Assembly (NCBI GenBank): GCA_934045905.1
Contig: OW203769.1
Location: 21,049,705-21,113,704 of the forward strand
Direction of reading: 5' to 3'
Source of the DNA: Leuctra nigra
Taxonomy: Eukaryota; Arthropoda; Insecta; Plecoptera; Leuctridae
Length of the DNA: 64,000 bases
The position numbers and the translations under genes were made by a program. Shown here in pieces: positions 3,093 to 63,969 of this stretch (within the stretch, counting starts at the first letter, position 1; each line of letters begins with the position of its first letter). The notes beneath the pieces were generated by a model. The model was not told the DNA's origin. It searched no databases and saw only the letters and a program-made list of their open reading frames with translations.

Positions 3093-3349
3093 ACGTTTTA
3101 CTGGGCAGCCTCAGGAATAAAACTCTCTTTGGGTAGACAAATTCTAACTTGAGAAAATTTAAGCTGGGCAACTTTAAATAAAAATTAACTTTATGGTTAG
3201 GCAGAATTAAAACTTGTGAAAAATTGAATATTAAAAGTGAGACCGCGGCAGGATTCGAACCGACGTTCTTTTGCACCACATGCCAATGCTTTACCAACTG
3301 AGCTATTGGGTCTGCGATGCCTGAATGGTTCATAATATACACAGCTTAC
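3093..3349 (-). mobile_element. tRNA-derived SINE inserted into a foldback arm
   Basis: The insertion interrupts the otherwise matching arm of the 2378-3430 inverted repeat and is flanked by GCGCAT at 3087-3092 and 3350-3355, a plausible target duplication. The minus strand contains a tRNA-like head (3312-3239) followed by an AT-rich body. This SINE type differs from the abundant TGGCTCAG family elsewhere in the window. Confidence 0.6.
3239..3312 (-). tRNA. tRNA-like sequence (SINE head or tRNA pseudogene, His-like anticodon)
   Basis: On the minus strand the A box (TAGCTCAGTTGG) and B box (GGTTCGAATCC) match the RNA polymerase III consensus at tRNA spacing over 74 nt. The presumed anticodon loop AUGUGGU gives GUG (His) after U33. 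The acceptor stem pairs only partly (GACC/GGTC), which argues for a pseudogene or SINE head rather than a working tRNA. Confidence 0.45.
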
Positions 3350-20074: not shown

Positions 20075-21575
20075 GAGTGGGTAAACCGGGATGATGGCTG
20101 GCGGGTTGCTTAGGAACTGTTGCGCATCTTGTGTTGTGAGAGAGAGAGGGAGTGGGTAAACCGGGATGATGGCTGGCGGGTTGCTTGGGAGTTGCGATGT
20201 GAGAGGGAGAGATTCTCATTGCATCTTGTGTTGTGTGAGAGAGAGAGAGAGGGAGTGGGTAAACCGGGATGATGGCTGGCGGGTTGCTTGGGAGTTGCGA
20301 TGTGAGAGGGAGAGATTCTCATTGCATCTTGTGTTGTGAGAGAGAGAGAGAGGGAGTGGGTAAACCGGGATGATGGCTGGCGGGTTGCTTGGGAGTTGCG
20401 ATGTGAGAGGGAGAGATTCTCATTGCATCTTGTGTTGTGAGAGAGAGAGAGAGGGAGTGGGTAAACCGGGATGATGGCTGGCGGGTTGCTTGGGAGTTGC
20501 GATGTGAGAGGGAGAGATTCTCATTGCATCTTGTGTTGTGAGAGAGAGAGAGAGAGAGGGAGTGGGTAAACCGGGATGATGGCTGGCGGGTTGCTTGGGA
20601 GTTGCGATGTGAGAGGGAGAGATTCTCATTGCATCTTGTGTTGTGAGAGAGAGAGAGAGAGAGGGAGTGGGTAAACCGGGATGATGGCTGGCGGGTTGCT
20701 TGGGAGTTGCGATGTGAGAGGGAGAGATTCTCATTGCATCTTGTGTTGTGAGAGAGAGAGAGAGGGAGTGGGTAAACCGGGATGATGGCTGGCGGGTTGC
20801 TTGGGAGTTGCGATGTGAGAGGGAGAGATTCTCATTGCATCTTGTGTTGTGAGAGAGAGAGAGAGAGGGAGTGGGTAAACCGGGATGATGGCTGGCGGGT
20901 TGCTTGGGAGTTGCGATGTGAGAGGGAGAGATTCTCATTGCATCTTGTGTTGTGAGAGAGAGAGAGAGGGAGTGGGTAAACCGGGATGATGGCTGGCGGG
21001 TTGCTTGGGAGTTGCGATGTGAGAGGGAGAGATTCTCATTGCATCTTGTGTTGTGAGAGAGAGAGAGAGGGAGTGGGTAAACCGGGATGATGGCTGGCGG
21101 GTTGCTTGGGAGTTGCGATGTGAGAGGGAGAGATTCTCATTGCATCTTGTGTTGTGAGAGAGAGAGAGAGGGAGTGGGTAAACCGGGATGATGGCTGGCG
21201 GGTTGCTTGGGAGTTGCGATGTGAGAGGGAGAGATTCTCATTGCATCTTGTGTTGTGAGAGAGAGAGAGAGGGAGTGGGTAAACCGGGATGATGGCTGGC
21301 GGGTTGCTTGGGAGTTGCGATGTGAGAGGGAGAGATTCTCATTGCATCTTGTGTTGTGAGAGAGAGAGAGAGGGAGTGGGTAAACCGGGATGATGGCTGG
21401 CGGGTTGCTTGGGAGTTGCGATGTGAGAGGGAGAGATTCTCATTGCATCTTGTGTTGTGAGAGAGAGAGAGAGGGAGTGGGTAAACCGGGATGATGGCTG
21501 GCGGGTTGCTTGGGAGTTGCGATGTGAGAGGGAGAGATTCTCATTGCATCTTGTGTTGTGAGAGAGAGAAAGAGG
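20075..21575. repeat. Tandem array, ~101-bp unit, about 15 copies
   Basis: Each unit contains GGGTAAACCGGGATGATGGC, GAGTTGCGATGTGAGAGG and a (GA)n run of variable length. Units start near 20078, 20151, 20254, 20356, 20457, 20561 and so on to 21476. The first copy is truncated and diverged. Length differences between copies lie almost only in the (GA)n tract. Long open frames on the minus strand are a by-product of the repetition. Confidence 0.95.
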
Positions 21576-22929
21576 GAGGGAAATCTGTGTCGTCTGCTTG
21601 AAGATGGAGGAACGCGAATGACAGATGAAGGACAGTTTTCGCCGGTCAGTTTACCGACGGACATTCTACCAGAGGACAGTATACCGATGGGCTGTTGACC
21701 TACCTTCAAAGTATATTTCATTAACAGAAAATACTTATTATTCTTCATGAATAAACATGAATTATCCCTCCGTAGCGTTCATGTCACTTGAACAAGTATG
21801 TATAATTAACAACTCAAAAACTCATGATCGTCAAAGAATAAGATTTGATAGAGTGTCAACTGTCCAGACTGGGTGGGTTTGACCCAGGGTTGACCTTAGG
21901 TTTGACCTAGACCGGAGAACGCCGGCGAGTGTCAAGTACTGAAATATCTGGACTCTGTCTGGACTCTGGGTACATACAAATCAAATTATTTCTTTGTCCA
22001 ACTGTACTTTGTAGAATTGATCGGCCAGTCATTCTTGGTAGTACAAATACAGAACTGTACTATTGAAGTTGTACGCTGTACCAAAGATTCACACATTCAT
22101 ATATCATAACATCACATTCTAATATACTTGCCTATACAAGCCTATACCTTAATATCTATAACCAAACTATAACCATAACTACTTATTAGGGGTGGAAGGC
22201 TGGATGTCATCCATCATGACCTCGCTCAACAAGAGGTCACTGACCCGCGCACTACACTTGCAAGCGACCCCGTAGCCTAGACGTAGCGTTGAGTAGCGTA
22301 GACGTAGCGTAGACGTAGAGTAGCGTAAACGTAGCGTAGACTGTTTCTGAGAAATTGACTGAGTAGACTAAGATTTTTAAAATGTTTATACCAGATCATC
22401 GATTCATTTTAAATCAAAATAGTCATCAATGCACAAATAACAACTTATCCCCTACGGATTTGTCGCCCCAACAAATTGTCATCTTCTCCTAAATTCATTC
22501 AAGATGGCGGCGTATAGAATGATCGTTCCTCTTCATTCCTTTGCATTTACTCCTCCTCTGCTTGAATGAAGACATTGATATGACAGACTGCATGGGAAGA
22601 CGAATCAAGTGAGCTGAAAAGACTAGTTCCAACTTGTGTCTATTGTCTAGTTTCATTCAGCTATTGACGCTGGGGCTGTGGGTGGCGGTGGGGGCAACTA
22701 TTATCCTCTGACGTCACGTGGCTGAAGACTGCGCGACATTTTGGAGCGGATAACGCCAATCCCGTTTTACGACTCGCCTCTGACAGACCACTTAAACGCC
22801 GACCAAGCGATATGAGATCCAGCTCAATATATAAGCGCCTTGGCCGCGTCATGCGGGGATTCCTCAATATTCAGTCAATTTTATCACATTTACCTGCTTT
22901 GACTCACCAATGTAAGGAATATTACTCCT
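21576..22929. other. No gene; small CGTAG minisatellite at 22262-22341
   Basis: A GTAGCGTAGAC-like short repeat runs through 22262-22341. The rest has no recognisable feature, apart from a TGACGTCACGTG-like stretch near 22710. Confidence 0.4.
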
Positions 22930-25815: not shown

Positions 25816-27457
25816 GGGGATATATCCAGACAATCAGGCGCAATGTCTTGGGATATATCAGACAATCAGGCGCAATGTCTTGGGATATATCAGACAATCA
25901 GGCGCAATGTCTTGGGATATATCAGACAATCAGGCGCAATGTCTTGGGATATATCAGACAATCAGGCGCAATGTCTTGGGATATATCAGACAATCAGGCG
26001 CAATGTCTTGGGATATATCAGACAATCAGGCGCAATGTCTTGGGATATATCAGACAATCAGGCGCAATGTCTTGGGATATATCAGACAATCAGGCGCAAT
26101 GTCTTGGGATATATCAGACAATCAGGCGCAATGTCTTGGGATATATCAGACAATCAGGCGCAATGTCTTGGGATATATCAGACAATCAGGCGCAATGTCT
26201 TGGGATATATCAGACAATCAGGCGCAATGTCTTGGGATATATCAGACAATCAGGCGCAATGTCTTGGGATATATCAGACAATCAGGGGCAATGTCTTGGG
26301 ATATATCAGCAATCAGGGGCAATGTCTTGGGATATATCAGACAATCAGGGGCAATGTCTTGGGATATATCAGCAATCAGGCGCAATGTCTTGGGATATAT
26401 CAGACAATCAGGGGCAATGTCTTGGGATATATCAGACAATCAGGCGCAATGTCTTGGGATATATCAGACAATCAGGCGCAATGTCTTGGGATATATCAGA
26501 CAATCAGGAGTAATGTCTTGGGATATATCAGACAATCAGGCGCAATGTCTTGGGATATATCAGACAATCAGGAGTAATGTCTTGGGATATATCAGACAAT
26601 CAGGCGCAATGTCTTGGGATATATCAGACAATCAGGCGCAATGTCTTGGGATATATCAGACAATCAGGGGCAATGTCTTGGGATATATCAGACAATCAGG
26701 GGCAATGTCTTGGGATATATCAGACAATCAGGCGCAATGTCTTGGGATATATCAGACAATCAGACGCAATGTCTAGTGGGATATATCAGACAATCAGGCG
26801 CAATGTCTTGGGATATATCAGACAATCAGGCGCAATGTCTTGGGATATATCAGACAATCAGGCGCAATGTCTTGGGATATATCAGACAATCAGGCGCAAT
26901 GTCTTGGGATATATCAGACAATCAGGCGCAATGACTTGGGATATATCAGACAATCAGGGGCAATGTCTTGGGATATATCAGACAATCAGACGCAATGTCT
27001 TGGGATATATCAGACAATCAGGCGCAATGTCTTGGGATATATCAGACAATCAGGCGCAATGTCTTGGGATATATCAGACAATCAGGCGCAATGTCTTGGG
27101 ATATATCAGACAATCAGGCGCAATGTCTTGGGATATATCAGACAATCAGGCGCAATGTCTTGGGATATATCAGACAATCAGGCGCAATGTCTTGGGATAT
27201 ATCAGACAATCAGGGGCAATGTCTTGGGATATATCAGACAATCAGGGGCAATGTCTTGGATAATATCAGCAATCAGGCGCAATGTCTTGGGATATATCAG
27301 ACAATCAGACGCAATGTCTAGTGGGATATATCAGACAATCAGGCGCAATGTCTTGGGATATATCAGACAATCAGGCGCAATGTCTTGGGATATATCAGAC
27401 AATCAGGCGCAATGTCTTGGGATATATCAGACAATCAGGCGCAATGTTTTGGGATAT
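25816..27457. repeat. Tandem array, 32-bp unit, about 51 copies
   Basis: The unit contains ATATCAGACAATCAGGCG and CAATGTCTTGGG. Variants include GGGGCAATG, AGTAATG, 30- to 31-bp units lacking GA/AC, and two units with GACGCAATGTCTAGTGGG (near 26763 and 27307). Because 32 is not a multiple of 3 and the unit lacks stops in every plus frame, all three plus frames stay open for hundreds of bases and give the same 32-residue cyclic peptide. This is a consequence of the repeat and not evidence for a protein. Confidence 0.95.
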
Positions 27458-35689: not shown

Positions 35690-36825
35690 ACAATCATACA
35701 ATTACTGGACTACTATGCCAATACCATCTTGGTCAGGCAAACAGTTGGACCTGCTTGTGTTTGCACCATTGCATTCACGTGCATTCGACATTTCAAAACC
35801 TGACATTCGAATGTAACACGATTCCAACCTCGACATACTGCGCAGGCGTGAGAAGTGAAAACGTTCCAAATCGGGGTTCAAGGAGTTTGAATTCGGTTAG
35901 TTCCAAAAGAAGACGCCGATTCGCGCCTTTTAAACATTTCGAACGTGTCTCGTTGGAATTTACAGTGATTTGAAAATGATCGTCCGTAACATTTCTAAAC
36001 ATAGAATCCCAATAAATTAAAACCTATTTTAAAACTTACTAGGTACAGACTATTAAGTTTAATTTTTAGTGTGATATAAAAATCCTAGAAATACTGGTTT
36101 TAGATTCTAAAATTAGAAGAAGACAAATGAACCATTAGAAGTTTAGAACCTATCTGAAACAAAAGGTGTTTCCGACATTTCTACAAAGCTTTTGCTCTTG
36201 ACCTCGGGGACCCGACGGATGACATCGTGGCAGTCACAAGAGCAGGTTTTGGAACGCATTGGTAAACATATTATCCCGGCTGGGAACCGCGACACGTGAC
36301 ACTGTGACGTCATGTCTCGACCGAGGTGAACGATAATCGATGAGATGGATGCATCGACTTGGAAGCTGGATCCAGTTGCAGATCATGTGCTGAGAGTCAC
36401 GCATGCGCAAGCGGGAGAGGGGGGGGGGAGGTTTGCATTTTTTAACATTGGAAAAACAAATGCTGGGCTCTAAAATGGTCACTTTTCATTTCAATGAATG
36501 AATGAATGAATCAATGAAAATTTCAATGGTTCTTGACTCTTCAGGTGAACTCAAATAACCAGTAATTTTGCTTTCATTCAATCATATTTGTAATGGTGTT
36601 CTGAGTCATTATGTAGGTACTCCAATAGAAATCCAGGGACAGAAAATGCCCCCTTCCTGGCACTAATGATTGTGTCGACCAAGTAATGACACGTCATTTA
36701 AGTGAATGTCGCAATCGGAAGAACAATCCGATGAGAATGAGATATTTATACTTTTATCTGATTCTGAATCATTTAAATTATTTTGTTAACTGCACAACAC
36801 TTTGTTATATACGTATGTCGACGAA
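35690..36825. other. No gene; (GAAT)n microsatellite at about 36497-36525
   Basis: Apart from the microsatellite and a G tract near 36420, nothing is recognisable. Confidence 0.4.
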
Positions 36826-37520
36826 TGTCGAGTTCGCCTTTAAGTATGTGACGTCATTATCGAGCTCGCCTTTAAGTATGTGACACGTGTATGTCGAGCT
36901 CGCCTTGAGGTATGTGACGTCATTGTCGCGCTCGCCTTTAAGTATGTGACGTGTATGTTGAGCTCGCCTTTAAGTATGTATAGTTGCCAACATGGCCGAC
37001 TTCTCGAACGCATTGTCTCTCTCGGACACGCATTGCCGAACGGGACGCGAAACTTGTCCGCTTTTTCATCCCGATGTGACGTGAATGTCGAGCTCGCCTT
37101 TAAGTATGTGACGTGTATGTTGAGCTCGCCTTTAAGTATGTTGTCGCGCTTGCCTTTAAGTATGTGACGTGTATGTTGAGCTCGCCTTTAAGTATGTATA
37201 CTTGCCAACATGGCCGACTTCTCGAACGCATTGTCTCTCTCGGACACGCATTGCCGAACGGGACGCGAAACTTGTCCGCTTTTTCATCCCGATGTGACGT
37301 GAATGTCGAGCTCGCCTTTAAGTATGTGACGTGTATGTTGAGCTCGCCTTTAAGTATGTTGTCGCGCTTGCCTTTAAGTATGTGACGTGTATGTTGAGCT
37401 CGCCTTTAAGTATGTATACTTGCCAACATGGCCGACTTCTCGAACGCATTGTCTCTCTCGGACACGCATTGCCGAGCGGGACGCGAAACTTGTCCGCTTT
37501 TTCATTCCGATGTGACGTGA
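36826..37520. repeat. Higher-order tandem array, 218-bp unit x ~3, built on a ~32-bp motif
   Basis: The 218-bp period is marked by CCAACATGGCCGACTTCTCG at about 36987, 37205 and 37423. Within it the short motif GCTCGCCTTTAAGTATGTGA recurs several times, with spacers such as CGTGTATGTTGA. The left end has extra copies of the short motif only, which suggests that the short repeat expanded first. The plus frames look long because of the repetition. Confidence 0.9.
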
Positions 37521-37997
37521 ATGTCGCCCTAACTCAGTTACAGTTGTCGTCCGGAAGATATGGACCAAGTTGCGAGAAGAATTGAGACGTTGGCGAACTT
37601 TCCGCACGTCTGTCGCGGATTATTTTAAAAGTTGGCGACTTTCGAGACGCCGAGACAATTTGCATGCTTTAGACGTCGTTCATTGATGCAGATTTAAAAA
37701 GAATGTATTTTTTGTATCAGTGGGGCATTTGAGAGTAAGATTATTTATCAGTTTCTATTACTCGATAATGATAAAATGAACATGATTACTATTTATGATA
37801 CATATGAGGTATTTCTTACTTGTGTTTCAAAGATTTGAGAAACGCTTTGCTGTGTGATAGTTGCTGCTCTATTGACCTTGGAAACCAGCTGTAAAGGCAC
37901 ATGTAATCATTTGCCAGTGATCAAGTTGCTATGCCTTATTCTCGATAGTACAACCACAAATATCAAAATAATCACTCTCTTCAAAAAGTAATTATTT
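37521..37997. other. No recognisable feature
   Basis: AT-rich non-coding sequence. Confidence 0.4.
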
Positions 37998-58885: not shown

Positions 58886-59610
58886 TTATATCGAGTTCCA
58901 GAGGTCTTAGGTTCGATACTCGCGCTCGTCCTTCCTTATTGAGTCTTTCCATACTGTTTTCCTCAGTCGATACGCAAATGATGGGAAGGTTCCAATCGAT
59001 TAGGCAAATGTTGGGATGGTTCCTCGCGATTAGACAAATGTTTGAAAGGTTCCAATCGATTAGGCAAATGTTGGGATGGTTCCTCGCGATTAGGCAATTG
59101 TTGGGAAGGTTCCAATCGATTAGGCAATATTGGGATGGTTCCTCTCGATTAGGCAAATGTTGGGAAGGTTCCAATCGATTATGCAATATTGGGATGGTTC
59201 CTCGCGATTAGGCAATTGTTGGGAAGGTTCCAATCGATTAGGCAAATGTTGGGATGGTTCCTCTCGATTAGGCAAATGTTGGGAAGGTTCCAATCGATTA
59301 TGCAATATTGGGATGGTTCCTCGCGATTAGGCAATTGTTGGGAAGGTTCCAATCGATTAGGCAAATGTTGGGATGGTTCCTCTCGATTAGGCAAATGTTG
59401 GGAAGGTTCCAATCGATTAGGCAAATGAGGGGAAGGTTCCATACGATTAGCCAAATGCTGGGATGGTTTCTCGCGATTAGGCAATTGTTGGGAAGGTTCC
59501 ATTAGATTAGGCAAATGTTGGGAAGGTTCCATACGATTATGCAAAAGTTTGGAAGGTTTCCCACCAATGAAGCACGACCGCCTCCTTCCCACCGGCCCTT
59601 GAGGATGATT
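58886..59610 (+). mobile_element. TGGCTCAG-family SINE with internal tandem expansion
   Basis: The head TTAGGTTCGATACTCGCGC (B box) and CTCAGTCGATACGCAAATG are followed by the repeat array at 58984-59553 and then the normal SINE body GCACGACCGCCTCCTTCCCA. The array grows from the CAAATGCTGGGAAGGTTCC segment that every family member carries once. Confidence 0.85.
58984..59553. repeat. ~30-bp minisatellite inside a SINE, about 19 units
   Basis: The unit is GGTTCC, then AATCGATTAGGCAA or TCGCGATTAGGCAA, then a TGTTGGGA-like end. The two variants largely alternate (~60-bp dimers), and a ~121-bp block recurs (about 59120-59240 and 59240-59360). Open frames on both strands come from the repetition. 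Confidence 0.9.
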
Positions 59611-60665: not shown

Positions 60666-60924
60666 ATGTGTCGAGTGAGCGCGCTACCAGTGCTGGTCGG
60701 TGTCGCCATCTGCCTGGCTGCGGTGGCATCACGTCGCCTCGACGACTCAGCCGGTAACGAAGACGACGTGTTCGCGCAGCAGCGGGGCACGTCGAGGACG
60801 AGAGGCTACGACGGCGGCGAGCGTCGCGGCGGCAAGACGAAGAAGGCGACGCCGATGGAGAAACCGACGGCGAGGAAGCCCAACATTGTCCTGATTCTCA
60901 CAGACGACCAGGACGTCGAGCTTG
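60666..60924 (+). CDS. Sulf1: Extracellular heparan-sulfate 6-O-endosulfatase, coding exon 1
   Basis: Exon 1 encodes residues 1-86 and the first base of codon 87. Sulf enzymes remove 6-O-sulfate from heparan sulfate outside the cell and so tune Wnt, FGF, BMP and Hedgehog signalling. Residues 1-22 (MCRVSALPVLVGVAICLAAV and on) are a typical signal peptide. Residues 23-70 are a charged, low-complexity linker with RR and KTKK clusters. Residues 71-87 (KPNIVLILTDDQDVELG) are the start of the sulfatase fold; D80 and D81 belong to the calcium site. The exon ends CTTG|GTTAGT (donor at 60925), phase 1. This ATG is chosen because it gives the signal peptide. It joins cleanly to exon 2 to read VELGSLNFMP, a Sulf-family hallmark. 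GC content is far above the surroundings. Sulf1 and Sulf2 cannot be told apart here; invertebrates usually have one gene. Confidence 0.9.
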
Positions 60925-61125
60925 GTTAGTTGCGTGACCTTGAGACGTGATGCGCATGTCCCGCAACGTGACCAGTGGCGGCCGGTAGAGGGTGGAGATG
61001 CACCGGCCGCCACTGGGTCTCTCGACGAGGACATTTGTCAGACTCATTGGGTGTATAGTTACAGTTATCCTTTCAATAAGTCGCTTAGTTGAATATACTG
61101 GAAGAAGTTTCGCTGAAAACGCAGC

Positions 61126-61255
61126 TTAAGGCCGATGCACAATTGACGCAGACGGACGACGCGGACGGACGACGGAGACGGATACGATGTTTAGGTATGA
61201 CGTCTGCGTCGTCCGTCCGCGTCGTCCGTCTGCGTCAATTGTGCATCGGCCTTAA
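61126..61255. mobile_element. 130-bp near-perfect hairpin MITE with TTAA ends, in sulfatase intron
   Basis: TTAAGGCCGATGCACAATTG then ACGCAGACGGACGACGC at the left is exactly inverted at the right, with ~49-bp perfect arms around a ~30-bp loop. TTAA sits at both ends. There is no coding capacity. The near-perfect pairing implies recent insertion or arm homogenisation. Confidence 0.85.
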
Positions 61256-61384
61256 GCCTTAACATTAAATACCTTCGTTACACCCACATTTTGCCATTTT
61301 TGTAATAAAATTATTATTTTTAGAAGTAACAAATTTGTAAACTTTAATTTGAAAAATCCGCAAGTCTAATGAAACCTCGTTTCG

Positions 61385-61800
61385 TGTTTCTACAAAATGG
61401 TGACAGATGTAGGTCCAAGTCTACAAATAGTGTCAGAAAATGGTTTATTTCTACAAGATAGTGACAGAAGAAGGTCTAGGTCTACAAATGGTGACATATG
61501 TTGGTCTAAAAATAGTGACACTAGTAGGCCTATGTCTACAAATGGTGACAGATGTTGGTCTAAGTGTACAAATGGTGACACTAGTATTCCTACGCTTACA
61601 AAATGGTGACAGATGTTGGTATATATGTCTATAAATTTGGGCAGTTGTAGGTCTAAGTGAACAAATGGCGACAAATGAATGTCCAAGTCAACATATTGTA
61701 TAGATATAAGTCTAGGTCTACACATGGCATCGATGTAGGTCTACATATGGTATCGATGTATGTCTACACGGTATCGATGTATGTCTACATGGTATCGATG
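61385..61800 (+). repeat. Degenerate minisatellite in the sulfatase intron
   Basis: A ~30-35-bp unit containing ACAAATGGTGACAGATGTTG and GGTCTAAGTCTAC-like parts repeats about ten times from 61395 to about 61690. It is followed by a shorter TGGTATCGATGTATGTCTAC repeat (to about 61800) that runs up to the first exon-2-like acceptor. Confidence 0.8.
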
Positions 61801-61812
61801 TATGTTGCGCAG

Positions 61813-62775
61813 GCTCGCTGAACTTCATGCCGCGCACGCTGCGGCTGCTGCGCGACGTCACGCCTACGTCACCACGCCGATGTGCTGCCCCTCGCGCAGC
61901 TCCCTGCTCACCGGCACGTGTGTGATGTATGTGTGTTGTGCGCAGGCTCGCTGAACTTCATGCCGCGCACGCTGCGGTTGCTGCGCGACGTCACGCCTAC
62001 GTCACCACGCCGATGTGCTGCCCCTCGCGCAGCTCCCTGCTCACCGGCACGTGTGTGATGTATGTGTGTTGTGCGCAGGCTCGCTGAACTTCATGCCGCG
62101 CACGCTGCGGCTGCTGCGCGACGAGGGCGCCGAGTTCCGTCACGCCTACGTCACGACGCCGATGTGCTGCCCCTCGCGCAGCTCCCTGCTCACCGGCACG
62201 TGTGTGATGTATGTGTGTTGTGCGCAGGCTCGCTGAACTTCATGCCGCGCACGCTGCGGCTGCTGCGCGACGAGGGCGCCGAGTTCCGTCACGCCTACGT
62301 CACCACGCCGATGTGCTGCCCCTCGCGCAGCTCCCTGCTCACTGGCACGTGTGTGATGTATGTGTGTTGTGCGCAGGCTCGCTGAACTTCATGCCGCGCA
62401 CGCTGCGGCTGCTGCGCGACGTCACGCCTACGTCACCACGCCGATGTGCTGCCCCTCGCGCAGCTCCCTGCTCACTGGCACGTGTGTGATGTATGTGTGT
62501 TGTGCGCAGGCTCGCTGAACTTCATGCCGCGCACGCTGCGGCTGCTGCGCGACGTCACGCCTACGTCACCACGCCGATGTGCTGCCCCTCGCGCAGCTCC
62601 CTGCTCACCGGCACGTGTGTGATGTATTTGTGTTGTGCGCAGGCTCGCTGAACTTCATGCCGCGCACGCTGCGGCTGCTGCGCGACGTCACGCCTACGTC
62701 ACCACGCCGATGTGCTGCCCCTCGCGCAGCTCCCTGCTCACCGGCACGTGTGTGATGTATGTGTGTTGTGCGCAG
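61813..62775 (+). repeat. Seven tandem partial copies of the sulfatase catalytic exon with their own 3' splice sites
   Basis: Seven copies of the first part of exon 2 precede the complete exon. Their exon-derived parts are 61813-61917, 61946-62050, 62079-62199, 62228-62348, 62377-62481, 62510-62614 and 62643-62747. Each begins after GCGCAG with GCTCGCTGAACTTCATG and ends at CTGCTCACCGGCAC (or CTCACTGGCAC). They are joined by an identical or nearly identical 28-bp piece of intron end (GTGTGTGATGTATG ... GTGCGCAG); copy 1 alone is preceded by different intron sequence. Units are therefore 133 or 149 bp. Copies 1, 2, 5, 6 and 7 share a 16-nt deletion (GAGGGCGCCGAGTTCC), leaving 105 nt; copies 3 and 4 keep 121 nt. 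All copies include the bases for the CCPSR catalytic motif, but in the 105-nt form they are read out of frame. Reading through any copy into the next hits TGA in GCTCGCTGAAC. They are best seen as exon-fragment duplications in the intron, not as normal coding exons. Confidence 0.92.
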
Positions 62776-63015
62776 GCTCGCTGAACTTCATGCCGCGCAC
62801 GCTGCGGCTGCTGCGCGACGAGGGCGCCGAGTTCCGTCACGCCTACGTCACCACGCCGATGTGCTGCCCCTCGCGCAGCTCCCTGCTCACTGGCATGTAC
62901 GTGCACAACCACCACGTGTTCACCAACAACGACAACTGCTCGAGTGCGCACTGGCAGGCTGCGCACGAGACCAGGTCCTTCGCCACCTACCTCTCAAACG
63001 CGGGGTACAGGACAG
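62776..63015 (+). CDS. Sulf1: Extracellular heparan-sulfate 6-O-endosulfatase, coding exon 2 (catalytic)
   Basis: This is the complete exon 2, phase 1 at both ends (240 nt). It continues exon 1 as [20 protein letters not shown], then [39 protein letters not shown] and a final THE-like [19 protein letters not shown]116 in CCPSR (codon at 62862-62864) is the cysteine that sulfatases convert to formylglycine, the catalytic nucleophile; R120 of the motif stabilises it. The 3' splice site is GTGTGTTGTGCGCAG|GC and the donor is ACAG|GTCAGA at 63015/63016. The remaining sulfatase domain, the hydrophilic domain and the C-terminus lie beyond the window. The split, phase and wording agree with Sulf proteins and not with lysosomal sulfatases. 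The sequence just upstream repeats the front of this exon seven times, so which acceptor is used is uncertain. Confidence 0.92.
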
Positions 63016-63181: not shown

Positions 63182-63969
63182 TTAGCGAGCGAAGCGAGCG
63201 TCTCCTTTTGGCTCTTTTGGCACGGACCTCTGTTTTTTTTCCGTTTACTGACGCTATACGGGTCAGAGTTTTTCTTCGATCGAGCTGAAATTTTGCACAC
63301 ATGTGGAGACAACCTTTTCTGTTTGCTGACCCCTAATTTTTTTGAAAAAAAATTGATTGGTTAAAATTTAAATAAACATCTCCTGATGGTAGGTTGAAAA
63401 ATGAAACTGGTCTTCGATATATCTGATCAAACTCAAATTTTGGCTATACAGGTCAGTGTTTTTCTTTGATCGAGCTGAAATGTTGTACACATGTAAAACC
63501 AATCTTCTCTGTTTGCATACCATAATTTTTTTTGAAATCCATTCATTAGTTAAAATTTAAATAAATATCTCCTGATAGGCTGAAAAATGAAAACGGTCTT
63601 CGATAATTCTGAACAAACTCATATTTTGCATGATCATTAAGACCAATATTGTCTCTTATTTTACAAAATTTCATCCCAATCAGTTAAGAACGTATGAAGT
63701 TATTGAAATTTTTAATATCTGTCATTAATGAAGTATCGAAATGAATGTTTTCCAGTGCCAATTGAAAATTGATTCTGATTTGCTTTATGAACCAGGTGCT
63801 TAGATGCTATTTTAAAGTTTCGATGAAAAGCATACACTTTTAAGTTGATATCATAATCAATTCAATATGGATGTATATGTTTTCTGTGCGTTGTGTACGC
63901 ATTTCCGGTTCGAGAATTTGCACGTACCCGTGCTCGCTCATCAACGCGTTACACTGAGCGTTTTCCTAG
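63182..63969 (-). repeat. Dispersed repeat, family GATGAGCGAGC, copy E (in sulfatase intron 2)
   Basis: It begins TTAGCGAGCGAAGCGAGCGT and ends GCTCATCAACGCGTTACACT then GAGCGTTTTCCTAG. 63541-63969 is a close inverted copy of 3840-4260. An internal near-duplication (63250-63370 and 63440-63560, both with CGAGCTGAAAT) is present. Confidence 0.75.

Follow-up and report, generated by a model that had tools for sequence, protein, structure and literature searches.

Introduction

Dscam-type clusters of mutually exclusive exons consist of tandem exon copies within one gene, an arrangement shared by the array that we describe here in the Sulf gene of Leuctra nigra. Unlike in Dscam-type clusters, the copies in Sulf are 5' fragments that lack the native donor of the exon, are nearly identical to each other and are mostly out of frame. 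Mutually exclusive catalytic exons were considered as a description of this locus and set aside, as all seven fragments are without the second half of the exon and the native donor, and read-through from them meets stops. The array also resembles minisatellites (VNTRs) in its head-to-tail units of 133 and 149 bp with 95% matches by TRF, its shuffled variants and the array-rich genome that surrounds it, but it differs from them in what its unit holds, namely a splice acceptor together with the catalytic-motif half of a coding exon.

Intron gain by tandem duplication, the general mechanism of which is reviewed in PMC3443670, has been described in potato, where a duplication across an intron-exon border came with activation of a cryptic donor (PMC4974935). 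The likeness to Sulf lies in a tandem duplication that spans a 3' splice site and the start of an exon, beside a potential cryptic donor, whereas the differences are that the Sulf array has eight copies rather than two and that its upstream copies break the frame if read through. In human CFTR, binding of TDP-43 to a UG-rich tract before the exon 9 acceptor is reported to cause mis-splicing (PMC12171016). The exon 2 acceptor of Sulf is likewise pyrimidine-poor and directly preceded by a UG-rich tract; however, the CFTR tract alters the splicing of one exon, whereas in Sulf the acceptor itself is multiplied. No description of a Sulf exon array or of a multi-copy acceptor array was found in the open-licence literature, at the level of titles and the opening parts of abstracts. 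Tandem duplication across a splice site is a known process, of which this array, with its eight copies in a catalytic exon, is a striking example.

Results

The window—the whole stretch of 64,000 nucleotides that was analysed—contains the first exons of the Sulf gene of Leuctra nigra, which lies on a 33.5-Mb contig (C8) of a 536-Mb assembly in 144 contigs. Exon 1, with a presumed start codon, is marked by a tblastn match to residues 4-64 of Zootermopsis Sulf (P0162). Joined to the complete exon 2, it encodes 166 residues free of stops that match the sulfatase N-terminus (PF00884, E 2.2e-17), and exon 2 also contains the formylglycine motif of sulfatases (Cys-x-Pro-x-Arg). The exon 2 protein is identical at 77 of 80 residues to Zootermopsis P0162 and Diploptera P0085/P0001. 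Among the matches listed, the closest full-length Sulf is that of the termite Zootermopsis (82% identity over 81% of the query) and the best full-length relatives are mostly insect Sulf proteins; the nearest sampled Sulf proteins appear to belong to termites and cockroaches. Orthology to insect Sulf along the length of the protein, its C-terminal part included, rests on exons located by tblastn. These match the Sulf-1-like P0162 discontinuously between residues 4 and 990 (residues 668-844, for example, are unmatched). The remaining exons are recognizable downstream, in genome order on the same contig to ~25.7 kb beyond the window end, and one of them is 98% identical to Zootermopsis over 51 residues.

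No second Sulf gene was found in the genome by tblastn with P0162 (30 candidates scored). There were 23 matches, of which 19 are on C8 and 4 weaker ones (38-58% identity) form one cluster on another contig, C1, which is probably another sulfatase. We also considered a second Sulf that would make the array dispensable, and found none, the weak cluster being the only match outside C8. Since the downstream exons are recognizable and no second Sulf was found, the gene is probably functional.

The start of exon 2, together with its acceptor, is present in eight head-to-tail copies from 61813 to 63015 on the + strand (Table 1), the acceptors being spaced by 133, 133, 149, 149, 133, 133 and 133 bp. 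TRF delimits near-identical head-to-tail units, as in a minisatellite, at 61806-62820 (period 133, 7.4 copies, 95% matches), and their score of 1707 is far beyond chance. The seven upstream copies correspond to the first half of exon 2, and copy 8 alone reaches the exon 2 donor at 63015 (CAG/GTCAGA, the slash marking the splice site). Each fragment consists of the first 104 or 120 nt of exon 2, up to ...CTCAC[C/T]GGCA, and is followed by 29 nt of junction and intron tail, CGTGTGTGATGTATGTGTGTTGTGCGCAG, and then directly by the next copy; in the tail between copies 6 and 7, one T replaces a G of CGTGTGTGATGTATGTGTGTTGTGCGCAG. All of acceptors 1-7 keep the AG and nearly the same tract, which is shorter in copy 1. 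The tract is rich in UG, and pyrimidines occupy 9 of the 16 positions at -20..-5, or 10 of 16 in copy 7. The 30-base core that surrounds the formylglycine codon has eight matches with at most 2 mismatches in the 536-Mb assembly, all inside the array, while the same core read backwards has none. Neither the window nor the gene region 59000-92000 (window coordinates extended downstream) contains any N.

Table 1. Features of the 5' part of the Sulf gene in window coordinates; the first base of each of copies 1 to 8 is the first exonic base after its acceptor
Feature	Position	Strand	Description
Exon 1, coding part (start codon to donor)	60666..60924	+	open 259-nt stretch ending CTTG/GTTAGT, phase 1
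Intron 1 up to acceptor 1	60925..61812	+	888 nt (1851 nt to last acceptor)
Intron 1 minisatellites	61389..61805	+	30-bp and 21-23-bp units among other TRF periods; 64-87% matches
Copy 1	61813..61945	+	133 bp, 16-bp deletion; native intron and acceptor ATGTTGCGCAG directly upstream
Copy 2	61946..62078	+	133 bp, 16-bp deletion
Copy 3	62079..62227	+	149 bp, full-length class
Copy 4	62228..62376	+	149 bp, full-length class
Copy 5	62377..62509	+	133 bp, 16-bp deletion
Copy 6	62510..62642	+	133 bp, 16-bp deletion
Copy 7	62643..62775	+	133 bp, 16-bp deletion; G-to-T in preceding intron tail
Copy 8, complete exon 2	62776..63015	+	240 nt, in frame with exon 1; contains formylglycine motif
Candidate donor at repeat junction	61918..61923; also 62051, 62200, 62349, 62482, 62615, 62748	+	CAC/GTGTGT

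The copies fall into two length classes, since copies 1, 2, 5, 6 and 7 are without 16 bp of exon, CGAGGGCGCCGAGTTC, that copies 3, 4 and 8 possess and that is flanked by a 2-bp CG repeat. With this deletion set aside, pairs of copies differ at 0-2 positions over 131 nt or, when copy 1 is one of the pair, at 0-1 over 104 nt. Copies 4 and 8 show no difference over the shared stretch compared, and the deletion is the sole difference between copy 5 and either of them over the stretch compared. All four possible pairings of length class and C/T site are represented—full length with T (copies 4 and 8), full length with C (copy 3), deleted with T (copy 5) and deleted with C (copies 1, 2, 6 and 7)—so that exchange between copies or recurrent mutation is needed.

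Because of the deletion, the reading frame shifts inside copies 1, 2, 5, 6 and 7; the bases of the formylglycine motif are present in all eight copies but are in frame from the copy's own acceptor in copies 3, 4 and 8 only. When exon 1 is spliced to any of the seven upstream acceptors and read through, a premature stop is met in every case, after 123 residues via acceptors 1, 2, 5, 6 and 7 and after 138 via 3 or 4, at 260-1090 nt before the end of exon 2. Only acceptor 62776, read straight through, gives Sulf. Transcripts with such premature stops are expected to undergo nonsense-mediated decay, and messages from the upstream acceptors would be degraded.

These results agree with much of the original prediction, made from the sequence alone, which had recognized a Sulf-type gene with a complete exon 2, preceded by tandem copies that bring the number of acceptors to eight and that are so alike that their expansion was taken to be recent or ongoing. 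The array, the identity of the gene and the recency of the copies are all supported by the figures given above. The further statement that each of the seven fragments carries an acceptor and the bases of the formylglycine motif holds for all of them, but of the fragments only copies 3 and 4 have the motif in frame. To call them catalytic cassettes was too strong for fragments that have no second half or native donor, five of seven being frameshifted and all seven meeting a premature stop on read-through.

From copy 1 to copy 8 the intron lengthens from 888 to 1851 nt, and the exon 2 donor comes closer, from 1203 to 240 nt. In their immediate surroundings acceptors 2-8 hardly differ, and it is distance that sets them apart. 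Functional Sulf mRNA most likely joins exon 1 to acceptor 62776, which would be favoured because it is nearest to the exon 2 donor and best placed for exon definition. If splicing simply took the first acceptor, the decoys would be favoured, since acceptors 1-7 are nearer to the exon 1 donor, and copy 1 or 2 would be chosen. Given an apparently intact gene and no other Sulf found, we infer that most splicing goes to acceptor 8 and that some transcripts are lost to decoy acceptors. Use of acceptor 7 would give a 373-nt exon, a length that by itself does not rule this out. RNA structure that hides the decoys was also considered and rejected, as predictions of how far the bases near each acceptor stay unpaired do not single out acceptor 8. 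The tract of the exon 2 acceptor is not special, since the acceptors of Sulf exons 9, 11, 12 and 13 have an equal or lower pyrimidine content, in a comparison that left out exon 10.

Arrays of this kind are a habit of the genome. In 12 arbitrarily placed 10-kb stretches (120 kb, contigs C1-C8), TRF arrays of period >=20 make up 11.2% of bases, and 6 of the 12 stretches have an array of period >=60 with >=5 copies, with unit lengths of 69, 118, 121, 129, 136 and 145 bp and 89-96% matches. Since the same habit is seen across the sampled stretches, the exon array is one of many minisatellites and is set apart by its landing place. The intron 1 minisatellites abut the exon array and are more diverged than it. 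Elsewhere in the window, minisatellites are found at 20124-21578 (101 bp x 14 copies, 98%), at 25817-27457 (32 bp x 51 copies, 97%) and at 58967-59558 (30 bp x 20), the last ~1.1 kb upstream of the Sulf start codon, together with a nested 32/218-bp array at 36824-37526.

The array is not the only duplication of an acceptor in this gene. Just downstream of the window, TRF detects a 2-copy tandem repeat (L009:6878-6996) that spans the exon 5 acceptor and places an extra acceptor at L009:6929. The true acceptor follows 63 bp later, at L009:6992, and the two are much alike in tract and AG. The upstream site would give HTLPASS, then a stop. Because similar arrays are common in the genome and a second acceptor is duplicated in the same gene, the exon 2 array looks less special than the original prediction supposed. 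Sulf is nevertheless not enriched in splice-site duplications over the genome background, given that 1 of 12 acceptors and 0 of 7 donors were scored as duplicated, some of these splice positions being rough and the exon 10 acceptor probably misplaced, vs 158 of 1198 random 40-mers from the sampled stretches (1200 drawn, 2 dropped for N). The rule used for this count was ungapped, and the exon 5 duplication, which is gapped, was missed by it. Capture of exons by arrays does not look routine in this genome: exon 2, with eight matches in the surrounding 144 kb, is the only one of the 13 Sulf exon stretches tested to have more than one there, and in a kinase-domain scan that scored 124 of 731 candidates, the 132 matches listed include no tandem cluster of the same profile part.

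To look for the array in other species, we compared 281 proteins (the best 120 of 399, all 87, and the best 120 of 1407, with overlap). Two T[TS]PMCC motifs occur in only one of them, Sulf-2 P0163 of Tupaia. In this Tupaia chinensis gene model, TTPMCC is found at residues 84 and 188 and a whole exon is duplicated, which may be a real exon duplication or an error of the assembly or model. The residues before GSLN could be sorted in 224 of the 281 proteins, the other 57 not matching the GSLN search expression: GSLN is joined to EL in 204 and otherwise in 20. Ordinary spliced variants account for 4 of these 20, and in the remaining 16 the residues that lead into exon 2 are different ones, probably intronic. 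None of these 20 shows signs of the array in up to 25 residues before GSLN. A search with the 123-aa product of exon 1 and read-through of copy 1 gave no near-identical match (top match 55% identity over 76% of the query), which says little because no near-identical protein of this species was found among the matches listed. The repeat junction had 0 matches in viral contigs.

Discussion

The locus is probably best explained as a young minisatellite-type array that captured the boundary between intron 1 and exon 2 in the only Sulf gene found and persists as a tolerated by-product. An initial tandem duplication would have fused the tail of intron 1 to a point midway through exon 2, just after ...CTCACTGGCA. 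Slippage or unequal exchange among the copies would then have raised their number to eight and spread the 16-bp deletion through part of the array. Functional mRNA would be made via the last acceptor and the upstream acceptors would give stop-bearing, decay-prone messages, so that the array would be a by-product with at most a dosage cost. Among the options that the original prediction had left side by side, an unstable array is the one that the data from this one assembly support. An assembly artefact, with fewer copies or no array in the actual genome, is very unlikely: the assembly is a single one and tandem repeats are error-prone, but the copies carry different variant combinations and two length classes, the 33.5-Mb contig has no N nearby, and many similar arrays exist elsewhere in the assembly. 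An unlikely reading is that the decoys serve as dosage control, copy number setting the loss of pre-mRNA and thereby tuning Sulf and hence heparan sulfate 6-O-sulfation. It draws on the preserved AG and similar tract of all seven upstream acceptors, every one of which leads to a premature stop, and on the UG-rich tract, of the type that TDP-43 is reported to bind at CFTR exon 9 (PMC12171016). Sulf dosage could matter, since WNT and BMP signalling at synapses is altered in Drosophila sulf1 nulls (PMC3493450). However, the repeat-rich background accounts for the array without selection, and the acceptors of exons 9, 11, 12 and 13 are as pyrimidine-poor or poorer.

The copies might also be exons in the making, which we regard as highly doubtful. 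All seven fragments have a candidate donor, CAC/GTGTGT, at the repeat junction, which could pair with each copied acceptor; by a textbook weight matrix it scores 1.19, as well as the exon 1 donor (0.98). Its use would turn the five deleted copies into 105-nt exons that have no stop, are of phase 1-1 and keep the frame in 5 of 7 copies, and copies 3 and 4 could give a 123-nt in-frame insert that keeps the motif by way of a weaker GT, CGT/GTGTGA (-1.94). The seven copied acceptors, each with a junction GT, recall the intron gain by border duplication and cryptic donor described in potato (PMC4974935). On the other side, the exon 2 donor is much stronger (2.98), and 4.8% of the + strand GTs in the window, about 1 in 20, score at least as high as the candidate. 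Use of the candidate would leave 28 nt of intron between neighbouring copies, which is too short to splice, so copies would have to be skipped. The 105-nt insert would place 35 frameshifted, non-sulfatase residues between VELG and SLNFMP, inside the active-site region; that the related 123-aa truncated product has no near-identical protein counts weakly against this reading, for the reason given above. A combination of the two ideas, in which a decoy array of variable copy number is a splicing rheostat for the only Sulf and some copies are becoming 105-nt cassette exons, also seems rather improbable to us, and the tolerated by-product remains the account that we prefer.

If real in the population, the array is a natural experiment on acceptor choice. 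It lines up eight 3' splice sites, of which seven have nearly the same flanks and are told apart mainly by how far they lie from the donors on either side, in a gene that modulates morphogens and for which no second copy was found. Splice-site duplication has been proposed as a source of new introns and exons, and the array suggests that genomes rich in minisatellites promote it. Were the rheostat reading true, exon and intron birth would have been caught in an ongoing minisatellite expansion.

Several other repeats lie in or near the gene. A 2.3-kb array (L010:288-2561; TRF periods 41/87/128 bp, 88-89%) ends ~70 bp before the exon 8 acceptor, and a ~190-bp unit is present twice in intron 2 (63253-63628), soon after exon 2, with pieces 82-86% alike. 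A weak tRNA match on the - strand at 3240-3312 (30.2 bits, gathering 29; not reported by ARAGORN) is possibly a tRNA-derived repeat. Finally, a near-perfect inverted repeat in intron 1 (61124-61257), with 57-nt arms that are 98% complementary and 20 nt apart, contains 13-bp GC-rich units and looks like a foldback element.
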